From positions 3,867,832 to 3,931,831 of the forward strand of contig JACTAT010000002.1 of the NCBI GenBank assembly GCA_014526335.1: a DNA stretch of 64,000 nt, given 5' to 3'. Shown here one piece after another: positions 20,201 to 46,000 of this stretch. The first letter of the stretch is position 1, and each line of letters begins with the position of its first letter. The position numbers and the translations under genes are program-made. Origin of the DNA: Chrysaora quinquecirrha (taxonomy: Eukaryota; Cnidaria; Scyphozoa; Semaeostomeae; Pelagiidae). Below the pieces are notes generated by a model that saw only the letters and a list, made by a program, of their open reading frames with translations, ran no database searches and was not told where the DNA came from.

Positions 20201-23200
20201 TGATGTGCATCAGCATGTTGAAAGATTGTATTGCATGGGAGAGATCGATCATGAAAGTCGTAAGTTTTGTCAACAGTTTGTGTTGTGCCAAGCATCGCAT
20301 TAAGTAAAGCTAGAGTTACAGTAGTCTTAGAGATAATTGTTTTGCGTTTGTGACTCTTCTTATTCTACCTGTCTGCCTAATACCTTTTTCACTGAAATTA
20401 TCTGTTTTTTTTCCTAGTTTTGCATTGAATGCAGAAAAGGTGACAACGAAGAACTTCTGCTTCTATGTGACCAGTGTGATAGAGGCTGTCATACATACTG
20501 TTGCCATGTATGTTATCAAAAAGAAACACCTTAGAGCTACTTACAGTTAAAATTTGGTCTTATTTCAAACTCATTTGTTTTGTGTACCACTCTTTTAAGT
20601 CTCTTAAGTCTGATATTTCTTTTTTTTGCAGCCTAAACTTGAGAGAATACCTGATGGAGACTGGTTTTGCAGAGAATGCATCATGATTGTAAGTTTCTAT
20701 TTCATTTCATATCTTGTTTGTGTAAGCTTCGCATTTTATATACAAGTAGTACCTTGATAAGGAATTTGCAGCTTAAAATTGCTTGGAAAATAAGGAACTA
20801 GCTTGACTTATTACATGAGGCCTACTCTTCGTAAACAGGAACAACAGCAACAAAAACAGCCATACAGCTGGGTGATTTCTGGAAGCTAAAAATGTTTCGG
20901 TGGATATTACTGGGTCTTTGTTTCATTTGAATCATTGAGGTCTCGGAATCAACTCTTGGTTCTCAACCACATTTTATGACTCTGCTGTTAAAAGTCTTGA
21001 ACGTTAAGATAATTTTTTTAATGTTTAATTTGTCTTCAGGCATCTGGAAGTGATCAATGTTATGGCTGCCAAGGGTCAACAGGACGAAGATTGAAATGTG
21101 AATTCTGTCCAAGATATTATCATCTTCAGTGTGTTGATCCCCCTCTTCAAAAGTAAGCTCTCTTCGTTCCTTTGTTTATTAACCCTCGTTCCTATCTTAA
21201 GCTATTTTCGTTGCTATCCATTTTCATAATCGGCGTTTTCGTCAGTAAAAGATTGCTCTTGTTTCATTTCCAAAAAGATATCTCAATTCTAAAACTTTCG
21301 ATTTTATTTAAATGAAATTGACAGAAATAATTTTAAGTCAATTTCCTACCAGCGTTTCTTGTTACCATGAGTTTCATTCTGTAATTTGATCAGAGTTCGA
21401 CTTTCGAATTTTTATTTTCGTGAGAGTTTGACTTTTGAATTGGAATTTTCATAAGAGTGCGAAGCAGGCGTTGGCCACGTGGTCAAACATTGTTGATCAA
21501 ACATCTGAAATTTCCAGCTCAAACAAAATGTTAAACCGTTTGGCAATGTAGCACAACCTTGCTTGTCAAATATTTTTGCTTGTGAAAAGAAGGAATTGGT
21601 TTTTGAGTTTTTCAAAAACATTGCTAGGCAAATTATGCTTGTCCAACAATGTTTGATGACGTGGCCAAACCGTCAAACATTGCTGAAAAAAACCCAAAAT
21701 GTTTGACCAACAGTTTGTTTCATATCTGAAATACAGCTGGTTGTGAGATATTTTCCTTTATAGATGCACTATAAATATTTCGATGCTTCTTTACAGGACC
21801 CCACGTTCACCCTGGGCTTGCCCTGTTTGTAAGAAAGAACGCCAGAAGAATAAAAGACCGCAGAAAAGAAAGAAGAGACCGGAAGATGAATTCGAAACGT
21901 TGTCAGCGTTTGAAAAATTCGACATTCCTTGTAAGTTTGTTTTAAGGAAAGGTTTTTTAACTGTCATAACTCTAGTTATAGGTTTTGTGATGATAAACTT
22001 CTCATGTTGTCGCTTAGTTTGTTTTTTTTTGTGAGAAGAGTTTGGATTGACCAAGATTTCATTGCAATTTAGGGGGTCCCTACCGCTTGAGCAGTGTACA
22101 AGTTGTAAACGTTAACTTAAAACTCGCATATGTTGATGCAAAAACAGTTTCTGAGAGGTTTTTATTGTATTTCAACAGAGCATTATAGCCACCCCTTTTG
22201 TTTTGGCTCTTTCTGCATACGTAATTTCGACAATGTTCTGTTCGATTTCAAGAATGAAGTTTAAGGACTTAAACTAGCTGCACAAGTCTCGCGTTTTTAC
22301 TGTAAGTATTGTCTTTGGACAGCTCTGGCCAAGAATCAGTGGCCTATCAGTTCTAAGGATCATAGCAGAGACTCGAGTATCGAGTCTACTAGGGAGCTTT
22401 AAACTGCATTCTAAACGGGTAGAATGTTGTTAGCCGTCATATATGATTTCTGGTCAATTTTGTCCTCTTTACACGTATTAGACTGATTACCTGAGTCGTA
22501 GTTATCGCTATTGAAATACATGCTAGGACGCTCAAACTACGACTCATAATCGAACGGTTATCTTTCTGGACTTACGTTTTCTGCCTCGTTCTCATATTAC
22601 CATGGTTACAGTGATGTCAACGGTAAGTGGTTGTAATGGCCTAAATCTACCGGGTCTAAAACGCTGTGAAAAACAATGTTTCTGTGTCTTAAAACTTAAC
22701 TTACTAATTGTTTTGCAGAAAGCTCTTACCAACCCAGCTTTTTCGATATTCGTTCAAAACTTTTTGCGTGATTTAGTACTAAAACGGCTGCCGAACAGGG
22801 CTCGTATGTTTTGCTGTTTTGCTGTGAGGGGCAATGAACCAGCCTCGTTTCAATGCGCGCCAACTTTTTGGCGCGGGCCAGTCCAGAAAAATGCCGTAAT
22901 ATTATGAGTCCCAGTTTGAGCGACCTCGGTTTGGTATTAGTCTCGGTCTGATGAGCGATAACTGGGACTCAAGTAATAAGTCTAAAAGCTTGCGCGAATA
23001 CCAGTAGACAGAACCACCTTTCATCCTACATCAGATGTGTAAACACACCCGTGTGAATCGTAGTCGGCTCAGCACAACAAACCCGTCAGATTCGGGATGA
23101 TAATCTTCCCCTGCAATCCTCAGATCCACAACATCAAACATAATAACAAGCTCCTATATGAACCCTGTGAAGAGCGATACCTGTGACCCGTGTAGTGCCT

Positions 23201-24195
23201 CATGAAATACAGGACTGTCTAATCTGCATTTGCATCATCGTTATGTTTAGAATTCGCTTCAGAGTTCAACATCCGAATTTGTATCTTCAGCAGAGTTCGT
23301 CAGAATAGAGGCTTTTGCAATAGATGGCAGCTGTTTTTGTCAGCCCTTCGTTTTTATCAAAGGCTTGCGAAAGAAAATCTCTAACTAAGGGAATTATTCT
23401 CAGGATTCCGTCGAAAATCCTTAACAAAAATGAAGGACAGTAACATGGCTTTTATATAGCGCCGTTATAACTGGACATATTTAGCAGCGCTTTACAACTA
23501 TTTACCCCCTTAGCTCAGGCCATTTTTTCTTTTTCTATTTTTTTGCTATACTTCCTGGGGAGCATGCTATATATCGACTCGCGTCTGTCATACAGACAGC
23601 GCTAGGAGGGTTTTTAGGCCTTCATCACTAAACCAATTTACACCTTGGTGCGGTGTCACAGAAGGCAAGGTTTCTACACCTTGTTAATTTGTGCTCTCTA
23701 GCCTGGATTTGAACCACTGACCTTGAGCCCAAATGGCGCAAGTGCTAACCACTACGCTATGCTGCTCATGGTCTGCCGCCATCTGTTTCTTCAATTGAGT
23801 TATCTGCCCTACTGTTTAACAAGCAGTCAAAATGTCTGTGGTCGGTCGTGTTCTTGGAAATATATTGTTTTGGTTGGGCCAGCAGACGTGATCTAGTTTG
23901 TCACTGTATCTTTGCGCTCTGATGCTAGTCAAATTGAAGTTGCAATCGCCTCAAGAAAGGATCTCTGAGAAATCCGTTTTTCTAGGTTGGACAGGCCGGT
24001 AAACGTATGTTAAAATTCTTTGACAAAAGATGGGTGGAAGTTATCAAGAACGAAGGTCAGATCAAGAGACAAGAATCCAAATACATGGGAATGGAAAGCG
24101 ACAACAGTGAAAACTACGATAATGATGATGACGATGATGGCGATGGCGATGGAAATAATAGCAGTGAAATCGACAGCGACGATGCAGAAGTATGA
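145..24195 (+). CDS. BAZ2B-like: BAZ2A/BAZ2B-like (toutatis-type) chromatin-remodelling regulatory subunit, 5' partial
   Basis: Nuclear non-catalytic subunit expected to partner an ISWI ATPase and to read DNA and histone tails. Exons placed by GT/AG sites and matching phase: 145-2280, 2960-3194, 4157-4271, 4515-4607, 4711-4834, 5468-5560, 6309-6370, 7413-7478, 8097-8162, 8470-8535, 8901-9011, 9691-9753, 9852-9929, [gap], 11476-11606, 12222-12332, 12602-12711, 13231-13305, 13976-14273, 15118-15177, 15772-16702, 17411-17483, 17968-18053, 18199-18410, 18711-18762, 19082-19190, 19307-19359, 19658-19676, 20118-20259, 20418-20507, 20632-20688, 21040-21152, 21797-21930, [gap], 23986-24195. About 2,120 residues are visible, close to the known length of vertebrate BAZ2 proteins. 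Domain order TAM/MBD, coiled coil, DDT, WHIM, PHD, bromodomain is diagnostic. The first exon starts in mid-codon, so the start lies upstream. One exon is missing before DDT, and the N-terminal part of the bromodomain is missing. Vertebrate BAZ2A versus BAZ2B cannot be separated. Confidence 0.93.
2960..4607 (+). CDS. BAZ2-like exons: acidic linker and TAM/MBD-like domain
   Basis: Exons 2960-3194, 4157-4271 and 4515-4607. The first is Asp/Glu/Ser-rich and has a basic cluster KRRK near 3147, a possible nuclear signal. The next two carry the TAM (methyl-CpG-binding-like) fold. Visible hallmarks are GWRRQIRIR at the start, YYFAPCGKK in the middle and YPEVTKYL, then FSFS and VGEFLE. In BAZ2 proteins this domain binds DNA or RNA rather than methyl-CpG specifically; that is known for the family and not shown here. 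All three junctions are phase-consistent. Confidence 0.93.
3265..3340. repeat. Fragment of the TTATTCGAGG-type repeat
   Basis: In the intron 3195-4156, the words GGGGCGTTAATT and CTATTCGAGGGAGGCG match the family seen complete at 9245-9570. Short and degraded. Confidence 0.4.
3465..3765. repeat. Short inverted-repeat element, AACTAGTTG family, copy 1
   Basis: Intronic. Shares words with 62980-63420: GACATTGCGC / GGCATTGCGCTCAGTCAGAA, CTGCAACTAGTCGGCGCACAGTTCC-like text, and GACC.CGACCAACTGTA near the end. CGACTGC, AACTAGTTG and GTCGACAT words recur in opposite orientations, which suggests a non-autonomous DNA element. Target-site duplication not determined. Confidence 0.5.
4711..9929 (+). 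CDS. BAZ2-like exons: long charged coiled coil
   Basis: Ten small exons (4711-4834, 5468-5560, 6309-6370, 7413-7478, 8097-8162, 8470-8535, 8901-9011, 9691-9753, 9852-9929 and the end of the TAM block) encode an almost uninterrupted Glu/Lys/Arg/Gln helix of about 240 residues. It ends in ELKKPVDDM, the conserved motif preceding the BAZ2 DDT domain. Three consecutive exons are exactly 66 nt and, with the 111- and 63-nt exons, are phase 0 at both ends, so skipping any of them would keep the frame. The last donor (GTTATT at 9930) is weak. The next expected segment, a conserved RIPGL-type stretch, is not found. Confidence 0.9.
5015..5065. repeat. Solo end of the TAGACTTATTACC element family
   Basis: Carries the terminus TAGACTTATTACCTGAGTCG seen on both ends of 22478-22985. 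Only one end is present here. Confidence 0.5.
5625..5690 (+). repeat. Possible tRNA-derived SINE relic
   Basis: GGGGTTCGAGCCCCAGCC (about 5656) looks like a tRNA B box with its T-stem, in intron 5561-6308. The A box region is weak and no cloverleaf is evident, so a degraded SINE head is more likely than a tRNA gene. Confidence 0.3.
6432..6817. repeat. MITE, family II, copy 1
   Basis: About 385 bp in intron 6371-7412 with matching ends: GGGTGTATTTTTTTGATAAC and TTCTGTTTTCAGCAGAC on the left, and the reverse complement GTCTACTGAAAACAGAATGTG...GCGCCC on the right. Internal arms (GAAGGTTTTGGAGGCC, AACCTGCCGTTTTCAGAAGA) also pair. The terminal inverted repeat is about 38 bp. Flanks read TA on both sides, consistent with a TA target. 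No coding capacity. Confidence 0.8.
7890..8008. repeat. Small hairpin element, GAATAGCCTGTGTT ends
   Basis: Begins GAATAGCCTGTGTTCCAGACTC and ends GAGTCTGCAACACAGGCTATTC, a near-perfect inverted repeat of about 22 bp around about 70 bp. Intronic (7479-8096). Confidence 0.7.
9048..9215. repeat. MITE family I (CAAACATTG palindromic) copy
   Basis: About 170 bp: CCTGGTTAAACGATCAAACATTCTT on the left, AAACAATGTTTGATTGTTTG on the right, with the internal words TTGCTTGTCAAACA and AATGTTTGACCG. Both arms alternate CAAACATTG and CAATGTTTG, giving a foldable palindrome. One of at least eleven copies in the window. Confidence 0.75.
9240..9572. repeat. TTATTCGAGG-type dispersed repeat
   Basis: Starts ACCGTATATCCTCGAATTA and ends CAATTCGAAGATTTACTGTA, with repeated G-rich words GGGGGCTTATTCGAGG inside. 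The outer ends are weakly inverted. Fragments with similar words occur at 3265, 36965 and 63700. Confidence 0.55.
10070..10413. repeat. MITE, family II, copy 2
   Basis: Same family as 6432-6817, about 340 bp. Left end GGGCGTATCTTTTTTTGGTAAC, right end GACCAAAAAATACGCCCT, both followed inward by TTCTGTTTTCAGCAGAC and its complement. Inserted next to, or inside, an older family I element whose remains lie at about 9950-10050. Confidence 0.8.
10535..10825. repeat. MITE family III (GGAGACATGTCGC) copy
   Basis: Left end AAGGCCTGGCTAAACTAGGAGACG, right end ATGTCTCCTAGTTTAACCACAG, with CGCGACATTGTCGCGCGTGAC-type words in the arms. Inverted repeat about 30 bp. Further copies at 38575-38862 and a solo end at 48270. 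Confidence 0.7.
10995..11245. repeat. MITE family I copy
   Basis: Left end CCTGGCAAAATGATCAAACG, right end ATGTTTGATCGCTTGGCCAGG, so the outer 20 bp are inverted. It sits in the intron where an expected BAZ2 exon is missing. Confidence 0.75.
11476..14273 (+). CDS. BAZ2-like exons: DDT domain and acidic Asp-rich stretch
   Basis: Exons 11476-11606, 12222-12332, 12602-12711, 13231-13305 and 13976-14273. The DDT helices show ALHDPG, the segment NVSEVLRLF, AAILAYLVNELL, and the end motif KWNMEGRIRKLK. DDT domains bind DNA or the ISWI partner. The last exon continues into a run of about 50 residues of almost pure Asp/Glu encoded by a GAT-rich repeat (14120-14270). The first exon needs one base from an upstream exon that is not visible. 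Confidence 0.92.
11650..12135. repeat. Two adjacent MITE family I copies
   Basis: 11650-11935 and 11936-12135, back to back, separated by GATGGCCTGGCCAGGGCC. Each has CAAACATTG words in one arm and CAATGTTTG words in the other. Intron 11607-12221. Confidence 0.7.
12478..12525. repeat. Short tandem duplication
   Basis: CCAATGCTATCACCTTTGAC occurs twice head to tail in intron 12333-12601; the surrounding TTTGACC words suggest a degraded small satellite. Confidence 0.6.
14585..14715. repeat. MITE family I copy (partial)
   Basis: Right half is well preserved (GTGGCCAAACGTTCAAACATTGC, TTTGATCGTTTGGC); the left half is reduced to CAGCAATGTTTTGTGACG. Confidence 0.6.
15118..17483 (+). CDS. BAZ2-like exons: WHIM motifs with long variable insert
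   Basis: Exons 15118-15177, 15772-16702 and 17411-17483. WHIM1-like text is GQDRYKRRYHILPHAGGVYIEG (split across the motif about 15835-15900; key residues G-Q-D-R-Y and H-A-G-G). The long exon then continues with about 260 residues of low-complexity Pro/Ser/His sequence. The next exon begins YGWWRI, the WHIM2 start. In ISWI partners these motifs contact the ATPase and linker DNA. Junction phases agree. Confidence 0.9.
15245..15602. repeat. MITE with ~110 bp inverted termini, family V
   Basis: Left end ATTTCTCCAAATCAAAAGAT is matched by ATCTTTTGATTTGGAGAAAT-type text at the right end. Pairing continues through AAAGCATCCAAAGTTTAGTCTA and TTTCGCTGTCCTAGTACT versus the complement of AGTGCTGAGAAAGTAAAAC. 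About 355 bp, intron 15178-15771. Confidence 0.75.
17005..17272. repeat. MITE family I copy
   Basis: Starts GCGCTGGCCATGTTTAACC and ends TATCCTTTGGCCCGCGCC; the internal words TTTGTCAAACATTCGAAA and GTGGACAAACGGTTAAACATTG match the family. Confidence 0.65.
17968..20259 (+). CDS. BAZ2-like exons: WHIM2 end and linker before the PHD fingers
   Basis: Exons 17968-18053, 18199-18410, 18711-18762, 19082-19190, 19307-19359, 19658-19676 and 20118-20259. The first continues RGIREKMLHKSL, a conserved BAZ2 signature after the WHIM. The last carries the conserved tryptophan-rich helix ending CIAWERSIMKV immediately before the PHD. The 19-nt microexon at 19658 is supported by AG/GT sites and by phase on both sides. 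Intron 18054-18198 has a GTTT microsatellite. Confidence 0.85.
18062..18125. repeat. (GTTT)n microsatellite
   Basis: About 60 bp of GTTT units with one GTGT interruption, directly after a BAZ2-like donor site in intron 18054-18198. Confidence 0.9.
18572..18695. repeat. MITE family I copy (short)
   Basis: ATGTTTTGTGATGTGGCCAAACGATCAAGC on the left and AATAATGTTTGATCGTTTGGCC on the right. About 120 bp. Confidence 0.65.
20418..20688 (+). CDS. BAZ2-like exons: PHD finger 1
   Basis: Exons 20418-20507 and 20632-20688. A canonical Cys4-His-Cys3 zinc finger: CIEC, then GDNEELLLLCDQCDRGCHTYC, then a second exon ending IPDGDWFCREC. GDNEELLLLCD is the hallmark of BAZ2/BAZ1 PHD fingers, which bind the unmodified histone H3 N-terminus. 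The acidic GDNEE residues expected to contact H3 are intact. Confidence 0.96.
21040..21930 (+). CDS. BAZ2-like exons: second PHD-type finger and basic linker
   Basis: Exons 21040-21152 and 21797-21930. A second Cys4-His-Cys3 pattern follows the first finger directly: CYGC, CEFCPRYYHLQC, then PWACPVC. It is followed by a Lys/Arg-rich stretch (QKRKKRP) and ends before FDIP with a GTAAGT donor at 21931. Vertebrate BAZ2 proteins usually have one PHD finger; a second is recalled for the insect orthologue toutatis. The next exon should start the bromodomain but is not visible. Confidence 0.88.
21462..21720. repeat. MITE family I copy
   Basis: Intron 21153-21796. GTTGGCCACGTGGTCAAACATTG and GATGACGTGGCCAAACCGTCAAACATTGC flank several CAATGTTTG words. 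Confidence 0.65.
22478..22988. repeat. TAGACTTATTACC element, complete copy
   Basis: About 510 bp. Left end TTAGACTGATTACCTGAGTCGTAGTTATCGC is complementary to right end GCGATAACTGGGACTCAAGTAATAAGTCTAA. A second inner inverted pair (GCTCAAACTACGACTCATAAT / ATTATGAGTCCCAGTTTGAGC) follows. The interior includes ORF-like text with no recognisable domain. It lies where bromodomain exons were expected. Confidence 0.75.
23425..23775 (-). repeat. tRNA-derived SINE (copy A)
   Basis: Read on the minus strand from about 23771: GCAGCATAGCGTAGTGGTTAGCAC gives a pol III A box, and GGTTCAAATCC about 35 bp on gives a B box. The body runs to a tail with AAAGCGCTGCTAAATATG and GGCGCTATATAAAAGCC, the GCGCTATATAAA motif common in invertebrate SINE tails. 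Acceptor stem pairing is poor, so it is not counted as a tRNA gene. Confidence 0.7.
23986..24195 (+). CDS. BAZ2-like terminal exon (copy A): end of bromodomain and acidic tail
   Basis: Acceptor TTTTTCTAG, then 69 residues and TGA. The start GQAGKRMLKFFDKRWVEV matches the end of the bromodomain alpha-C helix of BAZ2 proteins (pattern AG..M..(F/Y)F.K.W). An Asp/Gly/Glu/Ser acidic tail follows. Helices Z, A and B with the acetyl-lysine pocket should precede it but are not seen between 21931 and 23985. The same exon occurs again at 30960-31169. Confidence 0.85.
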   Translation, partial: VGQAGKRMLKFFDKRWVEVIKNEGQIKRQESKYMGMESDNSENYDNDDDDDGDGDGNNSSEIDSDDAEV

Positions 24196-24399
24196 AGGTT
24201 AGCTTTCAGTTGTTTTGAAATCTATTGACAAACGCCGATTTTCGCAATATTGCCCTACGCTGTACGCCTACACGGACGATGAAACTGTTTCCAAGTTGGT
24301 AACTATAACTATGCTGGCAGAGACTCCGTTTTATTAAGTCATTCGACCTTGTCTGGTCTTTGTCAGTTTATGTGATATCTGTTATTGGCTTTAGGCTGA

Positions 24400-24492
24400 G
24401 GTATGACCAAACATTATTTGACAAGCAAAACGTTTGACCGCTCGGCGAAATTGCTTGCGAAACAAATGTATAAAAGATTAATGTTTGAGCAT
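24400..24492. repeat. MITE family I remnant (A)
   Basis: ATGACCAAACATTATTTGACAAGC, then AAACGTTTGACCG. Truncated at the right compared with 31374-31505 in segment B. Confidence 0.6.
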
Positions 24493-25439
24493 AGTGGGTT
24501 CGCTAAACACCAAAATCGGTATGAATTGTGCATTTTATGATACAAGCATGAAATTTGGCACAAGTACACAGTTTGATGCGCCAAACAAAATGAGAAACAG
24601 ACCCAACTCAGAAAATGGCCCCGAAAGCTATTTTTAGACTGGGGTACTTGGGCCCAGCCCCCACAGAGTTTTCTTCTATAACTTGGAAACTATTTGCGAT
24701 GCGCAGCCGAAAGTTAGTGCAGTTACTTATTTTAATATGCTTAATACAAGGAATAACAAATCCATTCAAAAATTCCCTGAAAGCTATTTTTAGACTGGGG
24801 TACTTGACCCCAGCCCCAAAACATTTTAGACAGGGCATTTTGGCAACATTCTAGCAAACTGGGTAACGGGAAATTTTAAAGTAGTTTTGGACTCTTTGGT
24901 GGTTGGTGGTCATTTTAAGACTTGAGAACATTCTGGCAAATCAATGGTTGTGACGTCATCGATGACGTAGAAAAGTTACGGTCAGTGAAAATCTGACTTT
25001 TGAATTTTGTGTTTTTAATGATATGGTTAGAAAGAACATCTCAAATGGAGCAAAAAATTATGAAACACCAATTCGATTTGGCTTAATACTCAGAAGTTAT
25101 TACTATTCGAAATTCGTGTGACGTCATCAAAACGCAAAGCTGATATTTTGAGTCTTAACCGTTTCGTGCATAAATCTTTCTTTTGATGTGCTCAGCGTTA
25201 CTTTTAGGATAAAAGCATCATGTTCTTGATCACGTACGCTAATTTTTGTCATCTCAAACCTTAAATTACGAAGAATGCTCGTAATTTCAATTGCGATACA
25301 GCTAGCGCTCCGAACTATCATGAATGTTGAAAAAGATGCAAAAGATAAAACATTTTTGCTTACTTTATCTGAGAATGGTCTTTAATTTGAATTATGTAGC
25401 CGTAAATGTTCGAGAAGACGGCAGACACCTATGTCGATA

Positions 25440-25850
25440 AGCTGTAGACAAAGGCATAGGCAAAGGCATAGGAATAAGTGTAGGTGTAGATGAAGGCATA
25501 GGTGTAGGTTAAGGCACAGGTATAGGTATAGGCAAAGACATAGGCGAAGGCATAGGCATAGGCACAGATGTAGATCTAGTTATAGGCATTTGTGTAGGCG
25601 AAGGCATAGGCGCAGGTGTAGACGAAGGCAAAGGCATAGCTGAAGGCACAGAAACAGGTGTATGTGTAGGTGAAGGCAAAGGTCTAGGCTAATAGTTTGC
25701 ATAGGTATAGGTGTAGGCATAGGCGAAGGCATAGGCACAGGCACCGGCGTAGGTTTAGATGTAGCAAAGGCATAGGCGAAGGCATAGGCACAGGTGTAGG
25801 TGTAGATGAAGGCATAGGTGTAGGCGAAGGCATAGGCACGGATATTGCTT
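25440..25850. repeat. 6-bp minisatellite, GGCATA/GGTGTA/GGCGAA units (A)
   Basis: About 400 bp of hexamers of form GGNNNA (GGCATA, GGTGTA, GGCGAA, GGCACA). Open frames on both strands (Gly-Ile-type plus, Met-Pro/Thr-Pro-type minus) are by-products of the 6-bp period. Confidence 0.9.
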
Positions 25851-26949
25851 GTTTGGAAACCAGGCTTGGTGGTGGATTGGAGGAATTCAAATACTACGGT
25901 TCATCCGAAACACAGAAAAATCCGTTCACTTTCGTGTTAAAGTACGAAGTGTGCCACTTTTATCAGTCTTAATAGGCATAATACAGAGATTTATACAAGA
26001 TTACAATAACAGTAATCGATAAGCTATTTGAATTGACTTTTGCAAAGAATTTTGATTACGTTTTAGAGCTTCAAGGTGAGAGACGCAGTTCGCAAGTTGT
26101 TACGTTGACAAATGTATAAATTTGTAAGTGCGGCTTTGTGGGATGAGTTCTCCAATAATAGCAGAGACGAGCACTGAATGATAATAATAAAAAACGTAAG
26201 AAAAAGGCTAAATAGGATTTATAGGCTAAGTTCGCAGATTCAGATATTATCTGGCTTGTGGCTCCTATTCTGGCACAAATTTTGTTGCCGAAATATTGAA
26301 CTAAAACTGAATCGGTCGATTGGTTTCGCTAAGATTCGCTCCAGTTCATTTCAGCAATCGCAAGTAGCTGGCAAGTGGCTGCGCAATTTCTTCTTGTCTT
26401 TCGCCAATCTTGTCGACTGAAATGGACATACCTTTTGATGATATGGAGTTTCGTCTATGCAATGAAACTCAGCCCTCAATGGCAGTTCCCCTCTTTCTTT
26501 GAGCATTCTTCCTAACCAAGTGACCACGTATCAAAATGCGGCTGTTCAACTTTTGTAAGCAGTGCCCCTATTTTTGGTATATGATTACCTTGAGATCCAC
26601 TTTTTAGTGCTTAGATCTATCTAGCTCAATCATATTAACATTCTCAGAGAAAGTAAGCAGAAAATGTTTTATCTTTTGCATCTTTTTCAATATTCATAGT
26701 AGTTCGGAACCCTAGCTGCATCGCAATTGAAATTACGAGCATTCTTCGTAATTTAAGGTTTGAAATGACAAAAATTAGCGTACGTGACCGAGAACATGAT
26801 GCTTTTATCCTAAAAGTAACGCTGAACACATCAAAAGAAAGATTTATGCACGAAACGGTTAAGACTCAAAATATCAGTTTTGCATTTTGATGACGTCACA
26901 CGAATTTCGAATCGTAATAACTTCTGAGTTGGAAACCCTAGAGGGCTAC

Positions 26950-27600
26950 ACCCGAGTACCCATTTCTAAAAATAACTTTGGAGGAATTTCGTTGAATGGA
27001 TCTGTTGTTTGTGTATTAAGCATACCAAATATGTAACCTTGCTAATTTTCAGTTCTGTATTGTAAATAGTTTCCGAGTTATAGAGGAAAAATTTTTAGGG
27101 CTGGGGTCAAGTACCCCAATCTAAAAATAGCTTTCGGGGGAATTTTTTGAGTGGATCTGTTGTTCGTTGTATTAAGCATATTAAAATATGTAACTGTACT
27201 CATTTTCAGTTCTGTATCGTTAATAGTTTCCGAGTTATAGAAAAAATGTTTTTGGGGATTGGGGTCAAGTACCCCAGTCTAAAAATAGCTTTAGGGGGAA
27301 TTTTTTGAATGGATCTGTTTTTCGTTGTATTAAGCATATTAAAATATGTAACTGTACTCATTTTCAGTTGCGTATCGGAAATAGTTTGCAAGTTATAGAA
27401 AAAATATTTTTGGGGCTGGGGTCAAGTACCCCAGTCTAAAAATAGCTTTCGGGGGAATTTTTTTGAATGGATCTGTTTTTCGTTGTATTAAGCATATTAA
27501 AATATGTAACTGTACTCATTTTCAGTTCTGTATCGTTAATAGTTTTGAGTTATAGAAGAAAAAGTTTTTGGGGATTGGGGTCAAGTACCCCAGTCTGAAA
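26950..27600. repeat. ~155-bp tandem modules in the right arm (A)
   Basis: About five head-to-tail units each with TGGGGTCAAGTACCCCAGTC, AAAAATAGCTTTCGGGG, GTATTAAGCATA and CATTTTCAGTTCTGTATCG. The CAAGTACCCC core is itself palindromic. Matching units in segment B at 34060-34700. Confidence 0.85.
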
Positions 27601-27730
27601 ATAGCTTTCGGGGCTATTTTCTGAGTTGGGTCTGTTTCTCATTTTGTTTGGCGCATCAAACTCTGTACTTGTGCCAAATTTCATGCTTGTATCATAAAGT
27701 GCACAATTTGACTCCTAAGCGATTGCACTA

Positions 27731-28500
27731 GTTAAAGTGTCTAGAAAGAGGCTATACAAAATAGAGTGTCTAACTGTTAACTATTACCAAATAGTGTCTA
27801 GTGTCTTATAAGGGATTTTTTTCTCAAAAGTGTGATTGTGTTTTCAATGCAAATATTGCTATTTTCTGGTTTTGTTTGTGTTATTTCAGGGAAATTATTA
27901 TCTTTTGTAGGTATATAAATATTCTTGGGATTGTGAAACCATCAAATTTGAGCCAACATTTTGTTGTTGCTTGTTCTTGTGATGCCAAAGAAATTGTTGC
28001 TAAACTTGGATACCAAAGCTCTCTCGAATGCCTTATTCAGCATCATCTGGTATTGCTGCTTGCAAATTCATGGTATTGAGAATTTCAACCGTCATTGCTC
28101 TTGTGTCACTTGGAAGGAAGAGGATGTCGCATTGTTCACTTCGGTAACAGAACTTATATTGAACTTGCTTACGTTTGTGAAGGCAAAAGAAAAAGACATT
28201 GATATATATGAAAGGCAAGGGAATCATGTTTGTATTATAAACTGTGTGACAAGACTAGTTTACCGTGTGTGCTATATTAAAATGGGGTTTGCGAAAAGGG
28301 GAAGTAAGGAAATGACAAATAGTAAGTATATTGGGAACACTGAAATTATATCTTCTTTAGTTCCCAGAAGAAAAATGCCAGCATCTTTCCACAAACCGAT
28401 AGTTAATTTATTTTCATTTCGTTTAGGTAATTTTATTGAGGATCATGTTGGCATTCCCAACACGGAATATTTCTACATCACTCAAATTCCATAAAGTCCC
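27731..28500. other. AT-rich stretch in segment A, no recognised gene
   Basis: Open frame 27961-28494 (+) would give 177 residues but shows no domain, no good start context and frame breaks against copy B (35009-35416 keeps about 135 residues). 27731-27940 has no counterpart in B. Function unknown; probably non-coding repeat. Confidence 0.4.
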
Positions 28501-28799
28501 TATTACAGTGACGGTGTATTACTATATGTTCTAACTATTATTCATCCCTCCCGAGTGTACTTTACCTGAGCCATTTCGTTCAGAATTTCGGATACTGGCC
28601 TAAATCCCGTTTAACGACAGGGTTTTCCAACGAATGCAGCCCAGAATTATTGGCTTTCTGTTTACATAGAAACGGTACTATAGAGAATAACGGTATGACT
28701 TAGGAAAATGCTGATGCAAACGGTATGAAATGATTGAGGTATCGTCTGAAACAAAGGAATCTGGTATGATTTTCTCGGTGAAGCAGAGTTTAATCACTT

Positions 28800-29278
28800 T
28801 ATACAATGCAATCTTCATGTCATGTTATCTTCATCGCAGTTTCAAGATTATATTCATTTGCATTTTCATTTTATGTCATATTCATTCGTGTATTCATTCC
28901 ATACCTTATTTATTAGTGCCTCTACTTCATACCGTACCGTATTCATTAGTGTCTCCATTGCATACTGCATATTCATCAGCGAACCGCATTCATTTCATAC
29001 TGTACCCATCATGGTCTTAATTTCGTAGCTACTTTATTTACTAACATCTTTACTTAGCCACATATTCGTCAGCGTCTTTATTTCATTCCGTAACTATTAG
29101 ATCCTTAATTTCCCACTGTAATCATTGGCATCTTAGTGCCATTCCTTATTTATTATCATCGTCTTTTCATACCGTATCTATCAAGCTTTAATTTCATACT
29201 CCGTTCATTTCAACTTGGTTTCATACCGTATTCATTAGCATCTTCGTTGCATTCCGGTTTCATCAGTGTGTTCATGTT
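28800..29278. repeat. TTCATNCCGTA minisatellite (A)
   Basis: Irregular units of about 30 bp built from CATACCGTATTCATTAG and CATCTTNATTTCATACCGT. Counterpart in segment B at 35800-36312, with more indels between copies than the rest of the duplication. Confidence 0.8.
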
Positions 29279-30278
29279 TGAACTGAGCTTGACAACGAGT
29301 GAGAAACGTGCTTATTCTACATCCAGTTAGTTCAACTTACTACCCGACAACAGTTAGCTTTACTGAAACTGTTATGATTTTAGCATATCAGTAGTCCAAA
29401 CAGGTTGAGGAACTGTAGTTAGTCGTGTAGACTGTTTTCACGTGAGAATGCTTAAGCTAGACTATGCATTTATTTGGTCTTATCGATATGTATGACTTAT
29501 AGTCGTATCTCGCGAATCTCTAACCAGTGTATTGCTACTAGTCATAATGAGTCTATATTGATTATTGAACTGTAGTTAATCGTATTCAGTTATCGTTAAT
29601 CTGATGTTGACTATAGTACTTAAAGTATTCTATACGAAATGTATGTGAATTTAAGATGGTTAGTGTTAATCGTTAATCGTTAATTGGTTAATGCTAGTTA
29701 ATGTAATCGGTTAATGGTTAATGGGATTAGTATCGTTAATGTAAGTTAACTTAAGTGTAATGGTTAAGTTAATGTTAATCGGTTATATAGATTCAGATTA
29801 TCGTATTAAATTATTATATTGTACTAATTAATTTGTTTATGATTAATTCAATTATAATGTAATATGAATTACATGTATATGTATGTTATATCCTATGTGT
29901 TTACAAATTATCATACCATATATTGCGAGAATTCTGATGATTCTTGATTAGAATGATAATCTTAATATTTCGTATGTTTATACCAGAGATATACATAGCA
30001 TCAGATAAGAGCAATCTGAATGATGATTTAGCAATGCTTGATTAGCTTGATCATCTGTCAAGTTATCGATGCATTGCAATCACTATCACTTTGGTATGCA
30101 TGGTCACAGTTGAAATGTTGTTTTATCATGATAATCGTTTATATTATCACTTTAGTTATATTCTTCTACAGTTCATGTTACTATCGTTATTTTATTCATT
30201 TATCGATTCATATTCTTCTTTTATGTTACTAACTATTCATATTAATTTTTTATATTCTACTTATAAGTTCATTATGTA
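29279..30278. other. 1000-nt spacer between the duplicated segments
   Basis: By first and last differing bases the spacer is exactly 1000 nt. It is strongly AT-rich, has no ORF with a domain, and none of the short-element families. It drifts through loosely repeating words (TTAATCGTTAATCG, GGTTAATG around 29660-29790). A short part (about 29935-30000) loosely resembles 45745-45800 with many indels. Possibly filled-in gap sequence. Confidence 0.6.
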
Positions 30279-30399
30279 TCAGAATAGAGGCTTTTGCAAT
30301 AGATGGCAGCTGTTTTTGTCAGCCCTTCGTTTTATCAAAGGCTTGCGAAAGAAAATCTCTAACTAAGGGAATTATTCTCAGGATTCCGTCGAAAATCCT

Positions 30400-30747
30400 T
30401 AACAAAATGAAGGACAGTAACATGGCTTTTATATAGCGCCGTTATAACTGGACATATTTAGCAGCGCTTTACAACTATTTACCCCTTAGCTCAGGCCATT
30501 TTTCTTTTTCTATTTTTTGCTATACTTCCTGGGGAGCATGCTATATATCGACTCGCGTCTGTCATACAGACAGCGCTAGGAGGGTTTTTAGGCCTTCATC
30601 ACTAAACCAATTTACACCTTGGTGCGGTGTCACAGAAGGCAAGGTTTCTACACCTTGTTAATTTGTGCTCTCTAGCCTGGATTTGAACCACTGACCTTGA
30701 GCCCAAATGGCGCAAGTGCTAACCACTACGCTATGCTGCTCATGGTC
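30400..30747 (-). repeat. tRNA-derived SINE (copy B)
   Basis: Counterpart of 23425-23775 in segment B, differing only in homopolymer lengths. Confidence 0.7.
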
Positions 30748-30959
30748 TGCCGCCATCTGTTTCTTCAATTGAGTTATCTGCCCTACTGTTTAACAAGCAG
30801 TCAAAATGTCTGTGGTCGGTCGTGTTCTTGGAAATATATTGTTTTGGTTGGGCCAGCAGACGTGATCTAGTTTGTCACTGTATCTTTGCGCTCTGATGCT
30901 AGTCAAATTGAAGTTGCAATCGCCTCAAGAAAGGATCTCTGAGAAATCCGTTTTTCTAG

Positions 30960-31169
30960 GTTGGACAGGCCGGTAAACGTATGTTAAAATTCTTTGACAA
31001 AAGATGGGTGGAAGTTATCAAGAACGAAGGTCAGATCAAGAGACAAGAATCCAAATACATGGGAATGGAAAGCGACAACAGTGAAAACTACGATAATGAT
31101 GATGACGATGATGGCGATGGCGATGGAAATAATAGCAGTGAAATCGACAGCGACGATGCAGAAGTATGA
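30960..31169 (+). pseudogene. Second copy (B) of the BAZ2-like terminal exon
   Basis: Same acceptor, same reading frame and identical 62-residue C-terminal part as 23986-24195. It lies inside duplicated segment B and has no further upstream BAZ2 exons of its own. Either an orphan exon carried by a segmental duplication or, more likely, the same exon assembled twice. Confidence 0.75.
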
Positions 31170-31540
31170 AGGTTAGCTTTCAGTTGTTTTGAAATCTATT
31201 GACAAACGCCGATTTTCGCAATATTGCCCTACGCTGTACGCCTACACGGACGATGAAACTGTTTCCAAGTTGGTAACTATAACTATGCTGGCAGAGACTC
31301 CGTTTTATTAAGTCATTCGACCTTGTCTGGTCTTTGTCAGTTTATGTGATATCTGTTATTGGCTTTAGGCTGAGGTATGACCAAACATTATTTGACAAGC
31401 AAAACGTTTGACCGCTCGGCGAAATTGCTTGCGAAACAAATGTATAAAAGATTAATGTTTGAGCAACAATGTTCTATTCCTTGACCAAGGCAATAGACTT
31501 TATAGTGGGTTCGCTAAACACCAAAATCGGTATGAATTGT

Positions 31541-34500
31541 GCATTTTATGATACAAGCATGAAATTTGGCACAAGTACACAGTTTGATGCGCCAAACAAA
31601 ATGAGAAACAGACCCAACTCAGAAAATGGCCCCGAAAGCTATTTTTAGACTGGGGTACTTGGGCCCAGCCCCCACAGAGTTTTCTTCTATAACTTGGAAA
31701 CTATTTGCGATGCGCAGCCGAAAGTTAGTGCAGTTACTTATTTTAATATGCTTAATACAAGGAATAACAAATCCATTCAAAAAATTCCCCCGAAAGCTAT
31801 TTTTAGACTGGGGTACTTGACCCCAGCCCCAAAACATTTTAGACAGGGCATTTTGGCAACATTCTAGCAAACTGGGTAACGGGAAATTTTAAAGTAGTTT
31901 TGGACTCTTTGGTGGTTGGTGGTCATTTTAAGACTTGAGAACATTCTGGCAAATCAATGGTTGTGACGTCATCAATGACGTAGAAAAGTTACGGTCAGTG
32001 AAAATCTGACTTTTGAATTTTGTGTTTTTAATGATATGGTTAGAAAGAACATCTCAAATGGAGCAAAAAATTATGAAACACCAATTCGATTTGGCTTAAT
32101 ACTCAGAAGTTATTACTATTCGAAATTCGTGTGACGTCATCAAAACGCAAAGCTGATATTTTGAGTCTTAACCGTTTCGTGCATAAATCTTTCTTTTGAT
32201 GTGCTCAGCGTTACTTTTAGGATAAAAGCATCATGTTCTTGATCACGTACGCTAATTTTTGTCATTTCAAACCTTAAATTACGAAGAATGCTCGTAATTT
32301 CAATTGCGATACAGCTAGCGCTCCGAACTATCATGAATGTTGAAAAAGATGCAAAAGAAAACATTTTTGCTTACTTTATCTGAGAATGGTCTTTAATTTG
32401 AATTATGTAGCCGTAAATGTTCGAGAAGACGGCAGACACCTATGTCGATAAGCTGTAGACAAAGGCATAGGCGAAGGCATAGGAATAAGTGTAGGTGTAG
32501 ATGAAGGCATAGGTGTAGGTTAAGGCACAGGTATAGGTATAGGCAAAGACATAGGCGAAGGCATAGGCATAGGCACAGATGTAGATCTAGTTATAGGCAT
32601 TTGTGTAGGCGAAGGCATAGGCACAGGTGTAGACGAAGGCAAAGGCATAGACAAAAGCATAGGAAAAGGTGTATGTGTAGATGAAGGCATTGTTGTAGCC
32701 GAAGGCATAGGCGCAGGTGTAGACGAAGGCAAAGGCATAGCCGAAGGCACAGAAACAGGTGTATGTGTAGGTGAAGGCAAAGGTCTAGGCTAATAGTTTG
32801 CATAGGTATAGGTGTAGGCATAGGCGAAGGCATAGGCACAGGCACCGGCGTAGGTTTAGATGTAGCAAAGGCATAGGCGAAGGCATAGGCACAGGTGTAG
32901 GTGTAGATGAAGGCATAGGTGTAGGCGAAGGCATAGGCACGGATATTGCTTGTTTGGAAACCAGGCTTGGTGGTGGATTGGAGGGGAATTCAAATACTAC
33001 GGTTCATCCGAAACACAGAAAAATCCGTTCACTTTCGTGTTAAAGTACGAAGTGTGCCACTTTTTATCAGTCTTAATAGGCATAATACAGAGATTTATAC
33101 AAGATTACAATAACAGTAATCGATAAGCTATTTGAATTGACTTTTGCAAAGAATTTTGATTACGTTTTTAGAGCTTCAAGGTGAGAGACGCAGTTCGCAA
33201 GTTGTTACGTTGACAAATGTATAACTTTGTAAGTGCGGCTTTGTGGGATGCGTTCTCCAATAATAGCAGAGACGAGCACTGAATGATAATAATAAAAAAA
33301 ACGTAAGAAAAAGGCTAAATAGGATTTATAGGGTAAGTTTGCAGATTCAGATATTATCTGGCTTGTGGCTCCTATTCTGGCACAAATTTTGTTGCCGAAA
33401 TATTGAACTAAAACTGAATCGGTCGATTGGTTTCGCTAAGATTCGCTCCAGTTCATTTCAGCAATCGCAAGTAGCTGGCAAGTGGCTGCGCAATTTCTTC
33501 TTGTCTTTCGCCAATCTTGTCGACTGAAATGGACATACCTTTTGATGATATGGAGTTTCGTCTATGCAATGAAACTCAGCCCTCAATGGCAGTTCCCCCT
33601 CTTTCTTTGAGCATTCTTCCTAACCAAGTGACCACGTATCAAAATGCGGCTGTTCAACTTTTGTAAGCAGTGCCCCTATTTTTGGTATATGATTACCTTG
33701 AGATCCACTTTTTAGTGCTTAGATCTATCTAGCTCAATCATATTAACATTCTCAGAGAAAGTAAGCAGAAAATGTTTTATCTTTTGCATCTTTTTCAATA
33801 TTCATAGTAGTTCGGAACCCTAGCTGCATCGCAATTGAAATTACGAGCATTCTTCGTAATTTAAGGTTTGAAATGACAAAAATTAGCATACGTGACCGAG
33901 AACATGATGCTTTTATCCTAAAAGTAACGCTGAACACATCAAAAGAAAGATTTATGCACGAAACGGTTAAGACTCAAAATATCAGTTTTGCATTTTGATG
34001 ACGTCACACGAATTTCGAATCGTAATAACTTCTGAGTTGGAAACCCTAGAGGGCTACACCCGAGTACCCATTTCTAAAAATAACTTTGGAGGAATTTCGT
34101 TGAATGGATCTGTTGTTTGTGTATTAAGCATACCAAATATGTAACCTTGCTAATTTTCAGTTCTGTATTGTAAATAGTTTCCGAGTTATAGAGGAAAAAT
34201 TTTTAGGGCTGGGGTCAAGTACCCCAATCTAAAAATAGCTTTCGGGGAATTTTTGAGTGGATCTGTTGTTCGTTGTATTAAGCATATTAAAATATGTAAC
34301 TGTACTCATTTTCAGTTCTGTATCGTTAATAGTTTCCGAGTTATAGAAAAAATGTTTTTGGGGATTGGGGTCAAGTACCCCAGTCTAAAAATAGCTTTAG
34401 GGGGAATTTTTTGAATGGATCTGTTTTTCGTTGTATTAAGCATATTAAAATATGTAACTGTACTCATTTTCAGTTGCGTATCGGAAATAGTTTGCAAGTT

Positions 34501-34815
34501 ATAGAAAAAAATATTTTTGGGGCTGGGGTCAAGTACCCCAGTCTAAAAATAGCTTTCGGGGGAATTTTTTTGAATGGATCTGTTTTTCGTTGTATTAAGC
34601 ATATTAAAATATGTAACTGTACTCATTTTCAGTTCTGTATCGTTAATAGTTTTTGAGTTATAGAAGAAAAAGTTTTTGGGGATTGGGGTCAAGTACCCCA
34701 GTCTGAAAATAGCTTTCGGGGCTATTTTCTGAGTTGGGTCTGTTTCTCATTTTGTTTGGCGCATCAAACTCTGTACTTGTGCCAAATTTCATGCTTGTAT
34801 CATAAAGTGCACAAT
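31541..34815. mobile_element. Foldback-like element (copy B)
   Basis: Same structure as 24524-27707: outer inverted ends, two left and about five right modules carrying GGGGTCAAGTACCCC, inner arms around 32100-32360 and 33770-34020, and the hexanucleotide core. Slightly longer because the core array is longer. Confidence 0.7.
32455..32945. repeat. 6-bp minisatellite (B)
   Basis: Same array as 25440-25850 with an additional block of about 65-70 bp, i.e. a length polymorphism between copies. Confidence 0.9.
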
Positions 34816-35799
34816 TTGACTCCTAAGCGATTGCACTATTAAAGCAGTTTGTTGAAATTACTGAAGAGTAATGTTTTCTAGGATAACAATATTACTTGTA
34901 TTGTGAAACCATCAGACTTGAGCCAACAGTTGCTTGTTGTTGTAATTTTGTTGTTGCTTGTTCTTGTGAGCCAAAGATATTTCTGCTAGCTGGGATGCCA
35001 ATGCTTGCTTGAATGCCATATTAAGCAACATCTGGTATTGCTGCTTGCAAATTCATGGTATTGAGAATTTCCACCGTCATTGCTCTGGTGTCTCTTGGAA
35101 GGAAGAGGATGTCGCATTGTTCACTTTGGTAACAAAACTTATATTGAACTTGCTTACGTTTGTGATAGCAAAAGAAAAAGACGTTAATATATATGAAAGG
35201 CAAGGGAATCGTGTTTGTATTATAAACTGTGTGACAAGACTAGTTTACCGTGTGTGCTATATTAAAATGGGGTTTGCGAAAAGGGGAAGTAAGGAAATGA
35301 CAAATAGTAAGTATATTGGCAAGACTGAAATTATATCTTCTTTAGTTCCTAGAAGAAAAATGCCAGCATCTTGCCACAAACCGATAGTTAATTTACTTTC
35401 ATTTCGTTATAGGTAATTTTATTGAGGATCATGTTGGCATTCCCAACACGGAATATTTCAACATCACTCAAATTCCATAAAGTCCCTATTACAGTGACGG
35501 TGTATTACTATATGATCTAACTATTATTCATCCCTCTCGAGTGTACTTTACCTGAGCCATTTCGTTCAGAATTTCGGATACTGGCCTAAATCCCGTTTAA
35601 TGACAGGGTTTTCCAACGAATGCAGCCCAGAATTATTGGCTTTCTGTTTACATAGAAACGGTACTATAGAGAATAACGGTATGACTTAGGAAATGCTGAT
35701 GCAAACGGTATGAAATGATTGAGGTATCGTCTGAAATAAAGGAATCTGGTATGATTCTCCTCAGTGAATCAGAGTTTAATCACTTTATACAATACAATC

Positions 35800-36312
35800 T
35801 TCATGTCATGTTATCTTCATCGCAGTTTCAAGATTATATTCATTTGCATTTTCATTTTATGTCATGTTCATTAGTGTATTCATTCCATACCTTATTTATT
35901 AGTGCCTTTATACCGTACCGTATTCATTAGTGCCTCAATTGCATACTGTATATTCATCAGCGTAATGCATTCATTTCTTACTGTACCCATCAACATCTTA
36001 ACTCGAAACTGTATTCTTTAACATCTTCATTTCATACCGTGCCCAAAGGTCTTAATTTCGTAGCTACTTTATTCATTAACATCTTTACTTAGCCAAATGT
36101 TCGTCAGCGTCTTTATTTTATTCCGTAACTATAAGGGCCTTTATTTCCTACTGTGTTCATTGGCTTCTCAACTTCATTCCGTATTCATTTTCGTCGTCAT
36201 TTCATCCCGTATCTGTCATGCTTTTTTGATACGCTGTTCATTACTATCTTAGTTTCATACCGTATTCATGAGCATCTTCATTGCATTCCGGTTTCATCAG
36301 TGTGTTCATGTT
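35800..36312. repeat. TTCATNCCGTA minisatellite (B)
   Basis: As 28800-29278; unit order and number differ, e.g. an additional CATTTCATACCGTGCCC unit near 36030. Confidence 0.8.
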
Positions 36313-37190
36313 ATACCTCCACGGCAAGCGTTTTCTTTTAAACGAAAGATAGCACGGTCAGATATGGCACCGTTTTCAAAAGGGTATCGCGTATAACTAA
36401 TAGGAAAGGAAAGGCTTTTGTAGAAAAATTCGTTTGATACAGCGTTTTTGGACTGATGTACTAACTTCAAAAACATTGATTTCAAAGAACTGTATTATAG
36501 TGGTTTTTGTATTTAAATTTGGTAATAATACAGAGACTGTTTTGATGATAACTTGTCAGTAGCGATTATTTGTCAAATTTTATGGTTTTTGATTAAAAGA
36601 TTGTATGTAAAATGCTTACTGAAGAGAATGTCCTATGAGTTTTAGAAGTGTTTAATGCTTTCCAAACTGTGGATTTGTTTCTATCTGGGCGTTTAAGTTG
36701 GGCTTTCAAGTAGGATTTTCAAGATCTCTTTTAGTGTCAGAGAATACGATATGATCTACTGTTCCTCGATTAAGCACTCGGGCCACTTTTTCAAAACTCA
36801 TCGTAAAGAGGAGCAGTAAATTGAAAATTTATGAATAAACTAGCGTTCAGACGAAAAGTTGGTTTGCAGCAACTGGCAAAATGTGTCTCTTGATTCATCA
36901 CATCTTGATCTTGCAAAAACAGTTAAATGAGTCTCCATGCAAACATGATGTACATGATGGGCAGCCCATTCTAAAGGGGTGCCTATTCGAGGGAGGACGC
37001 TCATATCAACACCAAGTTAAACGTTCAAATAATTTTGCTTACATGTTGCTTTGATGCAAAGATTACAAATATTGCACTGCAAGGATTTAGAAATGATGCC
37101 TTTGTACAGAGACTGATGATAAAAACAGAAAGTTTATAAAAACTTGTTAGAATTATATAATAGCTCTCCCATTATACGGCGAAGTCAATT
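36313..37190. other. Intergenic DNA between segment B and the GPCR gene
   Basis: No coding signal. A short TATTCGAGGGAGG fragment lies at about 36985. Otherwise unique AT-rich sequence. Confidence 0.5.
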
Positions 37191-43000: not shown

Positions 43001-46000
43001 TAAGGTTGTTGTTGCTGTTATTAAGGAGGTTCCTTACCGCTTTCAGTACTTGTCGAAATGACTACTAATGTATTTCATTGGTTGGGAGCAAGCCTTGAAA
43101 ATTACCTTAGAAAATTTAGTTTGTTATTGGCTTTTACAGCACAGAATTGTAGACTCGCTTTGAGTAAAACGGACTAGAATCGCTTTGAGTAGGTCGTTAC
43201 TAAGCAAGAGAACAAATCTTGAGTTAGAAATTACGAAAACAACTTTTAAGCTTAAATTTGTTGTAAAATTGCTGCGATTGTTTCTCCTTTCAGCCCTCTT
43301 TGGCATCTACCATACTGATGACTGTTCAACGAAACGTGTTCTTAGCATGTTTTGTTTAGAATTTAAAGCACTGGCAAGATTAAAATACATTGTTGGTCAA
43401 ACATTCGAGATTTTCTTTTGTAGCAATTTTTACCAGTTGGCTACGTCACAAAACATTGCTTGACAAGTAGAATTTACTGAGCAAAATTTTTTCTGATGTT
43501 TGACCAACTATGTTTGATCATTTGGCCAGAGCTTTAGGTTGTTGCTTTAGGCAATCCGGTATAAGACGATCTGCAAATCGTCCTGAAAATCATGGCGCTC
43601 TGGAGGTGATATGAAAATCAAGACGCGATGCGGTGGCACAGTGTAATCAGACCAATCCGATATATGACGCTCTCTGAAAGCTTGTTTTCCTATTGTTTCA
43701 CAAACGAAATGCGAAGCAAATCTGCGAAGGAGCTGCCGTGGCGTCTCAGTGTAACAAAACGCAACGATATCATGCCGGCATAGTGTAACTGGGGCTTCAG
43801 TCTGTTACTCAAAGTGATAATTAACATACTTTTTATAGGGTCCTAATCATGCAGTTTCTACAGCTTGCACCACTGGTGCCCATGCAATTGGTGACGCATT
43901 CACAATGATACAAAATGGGCATGCTGATGTTATGGTTTGTGGTGGAACTGAAGCTTCAACAAGTCCAGTTTCAATGGCTGGATTTGGTAGGTTCGTGAAT
44001 TAATTATATTTAGGGTTCTAGGGGGTCTCTGATTGAAGAGAAGTCTACACAGTAAGAAGCAAAGAACGTGGCAAAACGATAAGATAGCCATTGGTGCATA
44101 TTGATTACTTGATTGATTGATTATAGTATGCGAATGAATTTTCGACCCAATTTTCTCATCTGCTTATCAATGAGACACTTAAATGTAAAACATTAAACTG
44201 TAGACCAGTTTTTTATTTTATCACTACCGTGGCATCTACACTTTGCAATAACTTCTGACCGTCTAACACGCTGTCACTGTGATGTTTCCTTGTTCATTAC
44301 TGAGAGTATTATATAACCTTTGAGATGTACAAAGCTTCAGGATGGCGAGAAAAGCGGAACGTTTTTTTCAATCTCGTGTATTTTGCTGAACTTATACTCT
44401 TATTATACTCTGAAGCAGTATCAGACGAAAAATGCTTTTATGCATGACCAAAGATGTTCTCGCTCCTTTTTGCTTTCCTTAGAGTACTCTTGGATGAACT
44501 CCTTGACAGCAAGAAAAGCAAGCAAGCAGTCTTAGGCCTAATTAAATTTCATTTTTGACATGTGGTACGTTTATGACACTCTTGCAGATGATAAAGACAT
44601 CCGTGGCTTTTATCTTTTCCTATTTACTACAGCTGTGATGTCGAATTAAGCGTTTGATTGTCTTTTAGAGCCAGAGCGTTATCAACAAACTTCAATGACT
44701 ACCCAGAGAAGGCTTCGAGACCATTTGATAAAGATAGAGATGGCTTTGTAATGGGAGAAGGAGCAGGAATCGTTGTTTTGGAGGTAACAGAAATTTCTCT
44801 TTCCTAAACTATGTTAAGATAAAGTTTAAGTATGACCGACGACCGAGTGTTCACTTTGTTTTGCTCAATATCAAAACATTATGGCAGTGACTTTGCACAA
44901 CCCCAATGAGAAACGTAGACTTATTACATTCGTCGTAGTCTACGCTCCTCCACACTTCACCACCTCGCTCCAACTACTCTGAGGAAACAGCTGTAGGTTG
45001 TTGTAGTTGTTAGAAGCTGTTTCCGAAAGAGTAGGAGGAAAGTAATAAGTCTATGAGAAACGGGGGTGTTTGGTGCTGCTCTTTCTACTTGCTTTTTCAT
45101 GACTTACTAAGTCATGAATTGCGACATATTTGGCTTATCACAGCCGGATACCCTTTCATGCAATTTGCAAGTCTCATTCCATCGTCGAACAAGCTAACCA
45201 TCCCAAAGGTGATTCTATTATTTGATTTGTACTCCATTTAATGAAGATGGCGTTTTTTTTCTTATTCTTGTTCTGTCAGGAACTTGAGCACGCAAAAAGA
45301 CGAGGAGCAAATATGTATGCTGAAGTTTTAGGCTACGGAATGTCAGGTGAAAATATTCAACTTAAATTAAGTTTAATCTAGCCTAGCATCGAAGCATCGG
45401 TTAATGGGTTAATGGGTTAATCGGTTAATCGGTTAATCGGTTAATAGGTTAATCGGTTAATGGGTTAATTGGTTAATGGGTTAATTGGTTTAGCATCGGT
45501 TAATGGGGATTCATGATATAATTCGTATAATTCACAAATGTAATCATGTATTTTGCTTGATGTAGTTTAAATCTTCTGTTTAAATTAAGTTTAATCTAGT
45601 CTACCATCCAAGCATTTAGGGTTAATGGGGATTCATGATATAATTAATATAATTTACAAATGTAATCATGTATTTTCCTTGATGTAGTTTACACAAAAAC
45701 CCTATTTCGTAACCATTACTCGAAATCTTCTGATTTTTTGAGATTCTTGATAGAAAAGCAAGCATTAATATTTCGTAATGTTTTATACCAGGAGATGCTT
45801 ATCACATCACTGCACCATCTGAAGATGGCAGAGGAGCAATGCTTGCAATGAAGTCAGCATTGAACAATGCTTGTCTGTTGCCTCACGATGTTCAATATAT
45901 CAATGCACATGCAACATCTACACCTTTAGGTATGCAGTGGATAATACCAATTTATTTTCATATAATGCGTTATCCATATATATTCACTGTTAGTCACTAT

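Follow-up and report, generated by a model that had tools for sequence, protein, structure and literature searches.

Between false duplicates in genome assemblies a gap or a depth-gap has been described, caused by incorrect filling of gaps or by reads with errors, and the same study describes falsely gained exons (Ko et al. 2022; PMC9516828). The arrangement considered here lies in a 64,000-nucleotide stretch of Chrysaora quinquecirrha DNA (the window; C190:3867832–3931831 in an assembly of 327,998,173 bases and 740 contigs), where two copies of a segment of about 6 kb, copy A (23300–29278) and copy B (30279–36312), are separated by a spacer and each contain the last exon of a BAZ2-like gene. 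As in the cases of false duplication with exon gain in that work (PMC9516828), near-copies lie side by side on one scaffold with abnormal sequence between them, and a coding exon is gained; here, in contrast, the tail of the first copy would come from a locus 177 kb away, which makes that copy a hybrid, the error would be mirrored at that locus, and the source of the joint appears traceable. Homotype false duplications, presented there as under-collapsed reads with errors (PMC9516828), recall the opening 1.2 kb of the two copies, which differ only by short insertions or deletions (indels) and slips. The tails, however, are of two sequence types, which is not simple under-collapse.

The other comparison is with a true tandem segmental duplication subject to gene conversion, which would likewise show a pair at each locus and similarity both within and between loci, but the present locus has reciprocal tails without substitutions (two in the case of B) and an error-like joint. 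On the sequence comparisons given below, it is likely that the whole of A, spacer and B is a false tandem duplication created in assembly, because a mirror-image pair is present at a homologous locus, because the tails are identical across loci yet divergent within each, and because the spacer resembles poorly read sequence.

Exchanged tails at two homologous loci

The preliminary description of the window, made without any search, reported two near-identical segments of about 6 kb, and these are indeed present: A measures 5979 nt and B 6034 nt, both start with TCAGAATAGAGGC, found only at 23300 and 30279, and both end with GTGTTCATGTT, found only at 29268 and 36302 (+ strand). The spacer between them (29279–30278) is exactly 1000 nt long, as had been stated, with limits set by the first and last differing base. 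Chance similarity of the two copies is excluded because their BLAST pieces reach 99.6, 95.2, 97.4, 94.7 and 85.6% identity, and the likeness is uneven along their length. From 23300 to 24490 the sole substitutions listed are five slips within one T run; 24491–27730 holds 12 substitutions along with two indels (37 and 90 nt); 27731–27739, where the copies part, adds three further substitutions; and beyond about 27.74 kb, as far as A extends, divergence is 2–15% per block, the first block being higher. The replaced stretch that had been noted is found at about 27740–27960 in A, but the accompanying 39-nt indel is 37 nt in the alignment, which also contains indels of 90, 131, 54 and 17 nt.

Window positions 1–44300 are collinear with C190:3691983–3727610, about 177 kb upstream on the same scaffold, and the upstream block ends where a run of 500 N starts. 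Mismatch against the upstream locus ranges from 0.8 to 14.7% per window kilobase up to 44.3 kb, and beyond 46 kb two thinly aligned kilobases show 18–21%. This difference is high for alleles; divergent haplotypes kept in one scaffold or segmental duplications would either of them fit, and the reading of A, spacer and B is independent of that question. An arrangement of the two blocks as directly abutting 177-kb tandems was considered and rejected, as sequence to the right of the 500-N run gave only short repeat matches to C190:3548000–3567999.

An assembly-wide search with the head of A as query returned 41 matches, drawn from the best 40 of 792 candidates scored. Beyond A and B themselves, these comprise C190:3713886–3714807 and C190:3717509–3718430 (96% over 922 nt), one 30-nt piece of B, and 36 hits on a dispersed repeat contained in the query (about 23444–23767). 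The two upstream matches belong to a second pair, U1 (3713727–3717349) and U2 (3717350–3720941), which meet at a blunt joint without spacer that is uncertain by about one base.

Within each locus the heads agree. U1 and U2 show no mismatch at 970 positions of the head or at 537 of the middle part, and A and B differ at 5 of 917 positions (the T-run slips), while A differs from either upstream copy at 41 of 970. The tails follow the opposite rule. A MAFFT alignment of the tails, with the first 250 columns omitted since unlike sequence is forced together there, gives 2.4–14.7% divergence per block between A and B and 1.7–14.6% between U1 and U2. Across loci, by comparison, A switches to the U2 type over about 35 nt holding eight mismatches, and past that point no substitution is found in 1374 matched bases, with two 1-nt indels; between the tails of B and U1 there are 2 substitutions in 1968 matched bases, together with a 23-nt indel and another four indel bases. 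All four combinations of head and tail are thus represented (A window/upstream, B window/window, U1 upstream/window, U2 upstream/upstream), such that each locus reads as its own head with the other locus's tail, followed by its own head with its own tail. The suggestion that A and B are simply two haplotypes of one stretch does not survive this comparison: their first 4.4 kb agree, and their tails match two different loci.

Most likely the real locus contains the segment once, as copy B, which runs from a window-type head through a 3.6 kb insert and a window-type tail into the 3' flank. Copy A would then be a contig end that carries the window-type head and insert before crossing into the tail of the homologous sequence, and this end may have been joined end to end with a contig starting in B, the overlap going unrecognised. 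The joint would be 1000 nt of low-fidelity sequence related to 44.9–46.1 kb, probably from a long read that was left raw or poorly corrected. A mirror-image error at the partner locus would place U1, with its own head and a window-type tail, before U2 at a blunt joint. Crossed contig ends with an unremoved overlap would thus yield the exchanged-tail pattern in one step per locus, and we infer that the assembly rather than the animal is the origin of the pair and that B is the genuine copy.

Proposed source and make-up of the 1000-nt spacer

The spacer occupies the place where the joint of U1 and U2 carries 715 bp of unit sequence. It contains no N bases and is ACGT in the assembly record too. 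It had been described as free of the short-element families seen everywhere else, yet it does have a relative in the window: in a local alignment with cheap gaps, 29284–30278 aligns nearly end to end with 44888–46114, 15.6 kb downstream, with 799 matches, 124 mismatches, 51 insertion events and 138 deletion events. The score of 260.6 compares with a maximum of 141.3 in 200 dinucleotide shuffles, and it exceeds those of the other 285 of 286 segment–strand trials (maximum 180.7). Under stricter gap costs, three gap settings being used in all, 29620–30249 or only 29665–29741 aligns, and each beats 200 of 200 shuffles. What pointed to this putative source was the ATCGGTTA motif; the matched region covers a (ATCGGTTA)n array at window 45362–45691, next to a 72-bp direct repeat. 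A search of the whole assembly with the spacer gave no other match at the sensitivity used. Random or foreign filler was dropped as an explanation in view of this near end-to-end alignment.

Relative to its putative source the spacer is rich in indels, and it is poor in homopolymers. It shows 1.52 indel events per mismatch, against 0.11–0.48 in eight natural pairs from the same scaffold. Its homodinucleotide ratio is 0.739. In 761 overlapping 1-kb windows, a set from which those with more than 10% tandem repeat are left out, the mean is 1.13 (standard deviation 0.076, minimum 0.858); unfiltered, 9 of 1587 overlapping windows are lower, and these come from two repeat-rich places, one of them window 48.2–49.8 kb. 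The TA value of 1.13 likewise exceeds the maximum of 1.046 in the 761 comparison windows, and by a fourth-order Markov score the spacer is not unusual (rank 74 of 262).

Simulations were run 40 times per setting, with five natural settings (four divergence levels and one with doubled indels) and six read-error settings. Natural divergence gave at most 0.95 indels per mismatch, a homodinucleotide ratio of at least 0.90 and a deletion:insertion ratio of about 1 (0.9–1.1), whereas read errors gave means of 1.41–2.13 indels per mismatch, a lowest homodinucleotide ratio of 0.822 and deletion:insertion ratios of 4.4–7.1. On both of the first two measures the spacer is closer to the read-error runs. 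An ordinary old duplicate was considered and set aside, since simulated natural divergence misses these two ratios, though runs with 35% substitution match the spacer in identity and score. Loss of homopolymer bases is known from nanopore reads. The spacer is, we infer, read sequence, probably unpolished or of low quality and perhaps from a diverged relative of 44888–46114.

Some polishing programs operate in 500-base windows. The length of 1000 may reflect a pair of such windows left unpolished, or a 1000-base gap that was filled; it is also possible that this length is a coincidence, as it is set by where matching happens to end.

Objections and alternative explanations

Several observations weigh against an origin in assembly. 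The inserts of A and B differ too much, given the 12 substitutions and the 37- and 90-nt indels, for one molecule read twice; the assumption made here is that these differences stem from alleles or from polishing errors in repeats. The 3' flank beside the tails shows just 58 mismatches in 3397 columns between loci, and the near-identity of the tails is therefore less striking than the 2–15% contrast within pairs implies. No simulated setting reproduces the spacer: read-error runs stop at a homodinucleotide ratio of 0.822, the spacer identity of 0.615 lies below their means of 0.69–0.83 and is matched by the natural runs with 35% substitution, and its deletion:insertion ratio of 2.7 falls between the natural and the read-like runs. 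The natural control pairs (identity 0.69–0.90) are less diverged than the spacer, its 304 deleted bases include 144 in homopolymers, which is no enrichment over the expected fraction of 0.50, and its exact length of 1000 nt is left unexplained.

The best of the alternatives is a true tandem duplication of the 3' end of the gene at two homologous loci, with the heads homogenised within each locus, the tails exchanged by gene conversion or crossing over, and the spacer a natural insertion replacing about 715 bp. The occurrence of a pair at both loci, the intact state of both exon copies and the differences between the inserts, which are those of separate copies or alleles, are consistent with such a history. 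It nevertheless requires that duplication took place twice and that tails were then exchanged twice, very recently, in mirror image and at one place, and it must accommodate a spacer with no other match in the assembly and a profile outside simulated natural divergence; we regard it as unlikely. That both loci truly carry the last BAZ2-like exon in tandem, and that a very recent reciprocal exchange swapped their tails across 177 kb and left a homopolymer-poor, fast-degenerating joint, appears more doubtful still.

A plain fixed-size gap would differ from the proposed contig misjoin only in the origin of the joint: overlapping haplotype contig ends would have been set 1000 unknown bases apart, later overwritten by a gap filler or polisher. 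The length of exactly 1000 agrees with this, as does a 500 grid in the assembly, where two N runs measure 500 and where 7 contigs out of 24 listed have sizes exactly divisible by 500, a sign of grid cutting during scaffolding. However, the N runs seen are of 500 (n = 2) and 3988 (n = 1) and none is of 1000, and neither the exchanged tails nor the likeness of the spacer to 44888–46114 is accounted for, which makes this explanation highly improbable. Of the original proposal of a false duplication across a fixed-size gap, then, the false duplication is retained and the gap is not supported in the form given, the spacer being ACGT sequence with a recognisable putative source.

A long terminal repeat (LTR) retrotransposon or large retrotransposon derivative (LARD) has repeats that start with TG and finish with CA, and its outer ends are flanked by a target-site duplication. 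Although direct repeats around a short unrelated interior recall LTRs or another large mobile element, this reading is rejected as having next to no likelihood, because the repeat ends are TCAG and ATGTT, the repeats contain the last exon of a host gene, and homology with the upstream locus continues past the outer ends of A and B, which are therefore continuous with the flank and not element ends (a target-site duplication was not looked for separately).

The duplicated exon and its surroundings

The exon that is repeated would encode the end of a BAZ2-like protein. Its best PDB matches are the last helix of BAZ2B bromodomains (residues 95–115), and they are weak (E 0.34); exons upstream of it give matches to a PHD finger (E 1e-5) and, at 23.7 bits and thus under the cut-off of 25.4, to a WSD motif. 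At the upstream locus three bromodomain-like core exons can be picked out by eye (C190:3712761–3712844, 3713033–3713080 and 3713435–3713518). No counterparts of these were found in the window, and the corresponding place (window 22478–23057 against C190:3712574–3713603) is occupied by different sequence; the window's copy of the gene thus looks incomplete. A whole coding exon within the duplicate marks a false exon gain in Ko et al. (2022), and one is present here in both copies (23986 and 30960). The exon in B retains its splice acceptor and reading frame, and an annotation pipeline could therefore call a false extra exon.

Behind the exon lies the insert of 3.6 kb, in which one pair of inverted arms is nested within another and 158-bp units form a tandem array; the insert is absent from U1 and U2 and looks like a mobile element. 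A repeat of about 324 nt at 23444–23767 resembles a short interspersed element and recurs at 36 further places (85–90%) among the best 40 of 792 candidates. Coordinates are collected in Table 1.

Table 1. Features of the window and the basis on which each was placed
Feature	Position	Strand	Basis or remark
Copy A: window-type head, insert, upstream-type (U2) tail	23300–29278	+	Sequence comparison; proposed spurious hybrid contig end
Tail of A	27904–29278		No substitution against U2 (1374 matched bases); 1-nt indels at two places
Copy B: head, insert, tail continuing into 3' flank	30279–36312	+	Sequence comparison; proposed genuine copy
Tail of B and sequence after it	34875–36870		2 substitutions against U1 in 1968 matched bases
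Spacer, probable low-fidelity copy of 44888–46114	29279–30278	+	Alignment; same strand as source
Proposed spacer source, or close relative of the source	44888–46114	+	Alignment
Block collinear with upstream locus	1–44300		Partner C190:3691983–3727610
Last exon of BAZ2-like gene, copy A	23986–24195	+	69 aa, then stop
Second copy of BAZ2-like last exon, copy B	30960–31166	+	End inferred from 69-aa length in A
Insert in A	24222–27868		Upstream locus carries 537 bp of different sequence at this place
Nested inverted arms, insert of A	24524–24827/27401–27708 and 25088–25377/26639–26929
158-bp tandem array, insert of A	26965–27636		4.3 copies
Insert in B	31196–34874

Elsewhere in the window the reading frames include GPCR-, filamin- and TMEM175-like ones, and two neighbouring TMEM175-like frames on the minus strand (55723–57199), overlapping by about 38 bases, are perhaps a single two-repeat channel gene. 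Searches of the window with Rfam (gathering threshold) and ARAGORN found nothing. The 3988-N run lies at C190:3863844–3867831, its last N adjoining the first base of the window, and the sequence to its left (C190:3854845–3863843) is an inverted copy of C190:3738805–3745898 at 77–91%. Such N runs may mark either a gap or sequence that was withheld.

Taken at face value, the locus would show that 6 kb had recently been duplicated in tandem and that a chromatin-reader gene had acquired a second copy of its last exon. Most likely this arrangement is an error of assembly; it does not belong in tallies of gained genes or exons, and the apparent extra exon should not be read as biology. The features that point this way can be had without reads, namely tails swapped between loci and an indel-rich, homopolymer-poor joint with a traceable source, and they could be used to screen other assemblies.

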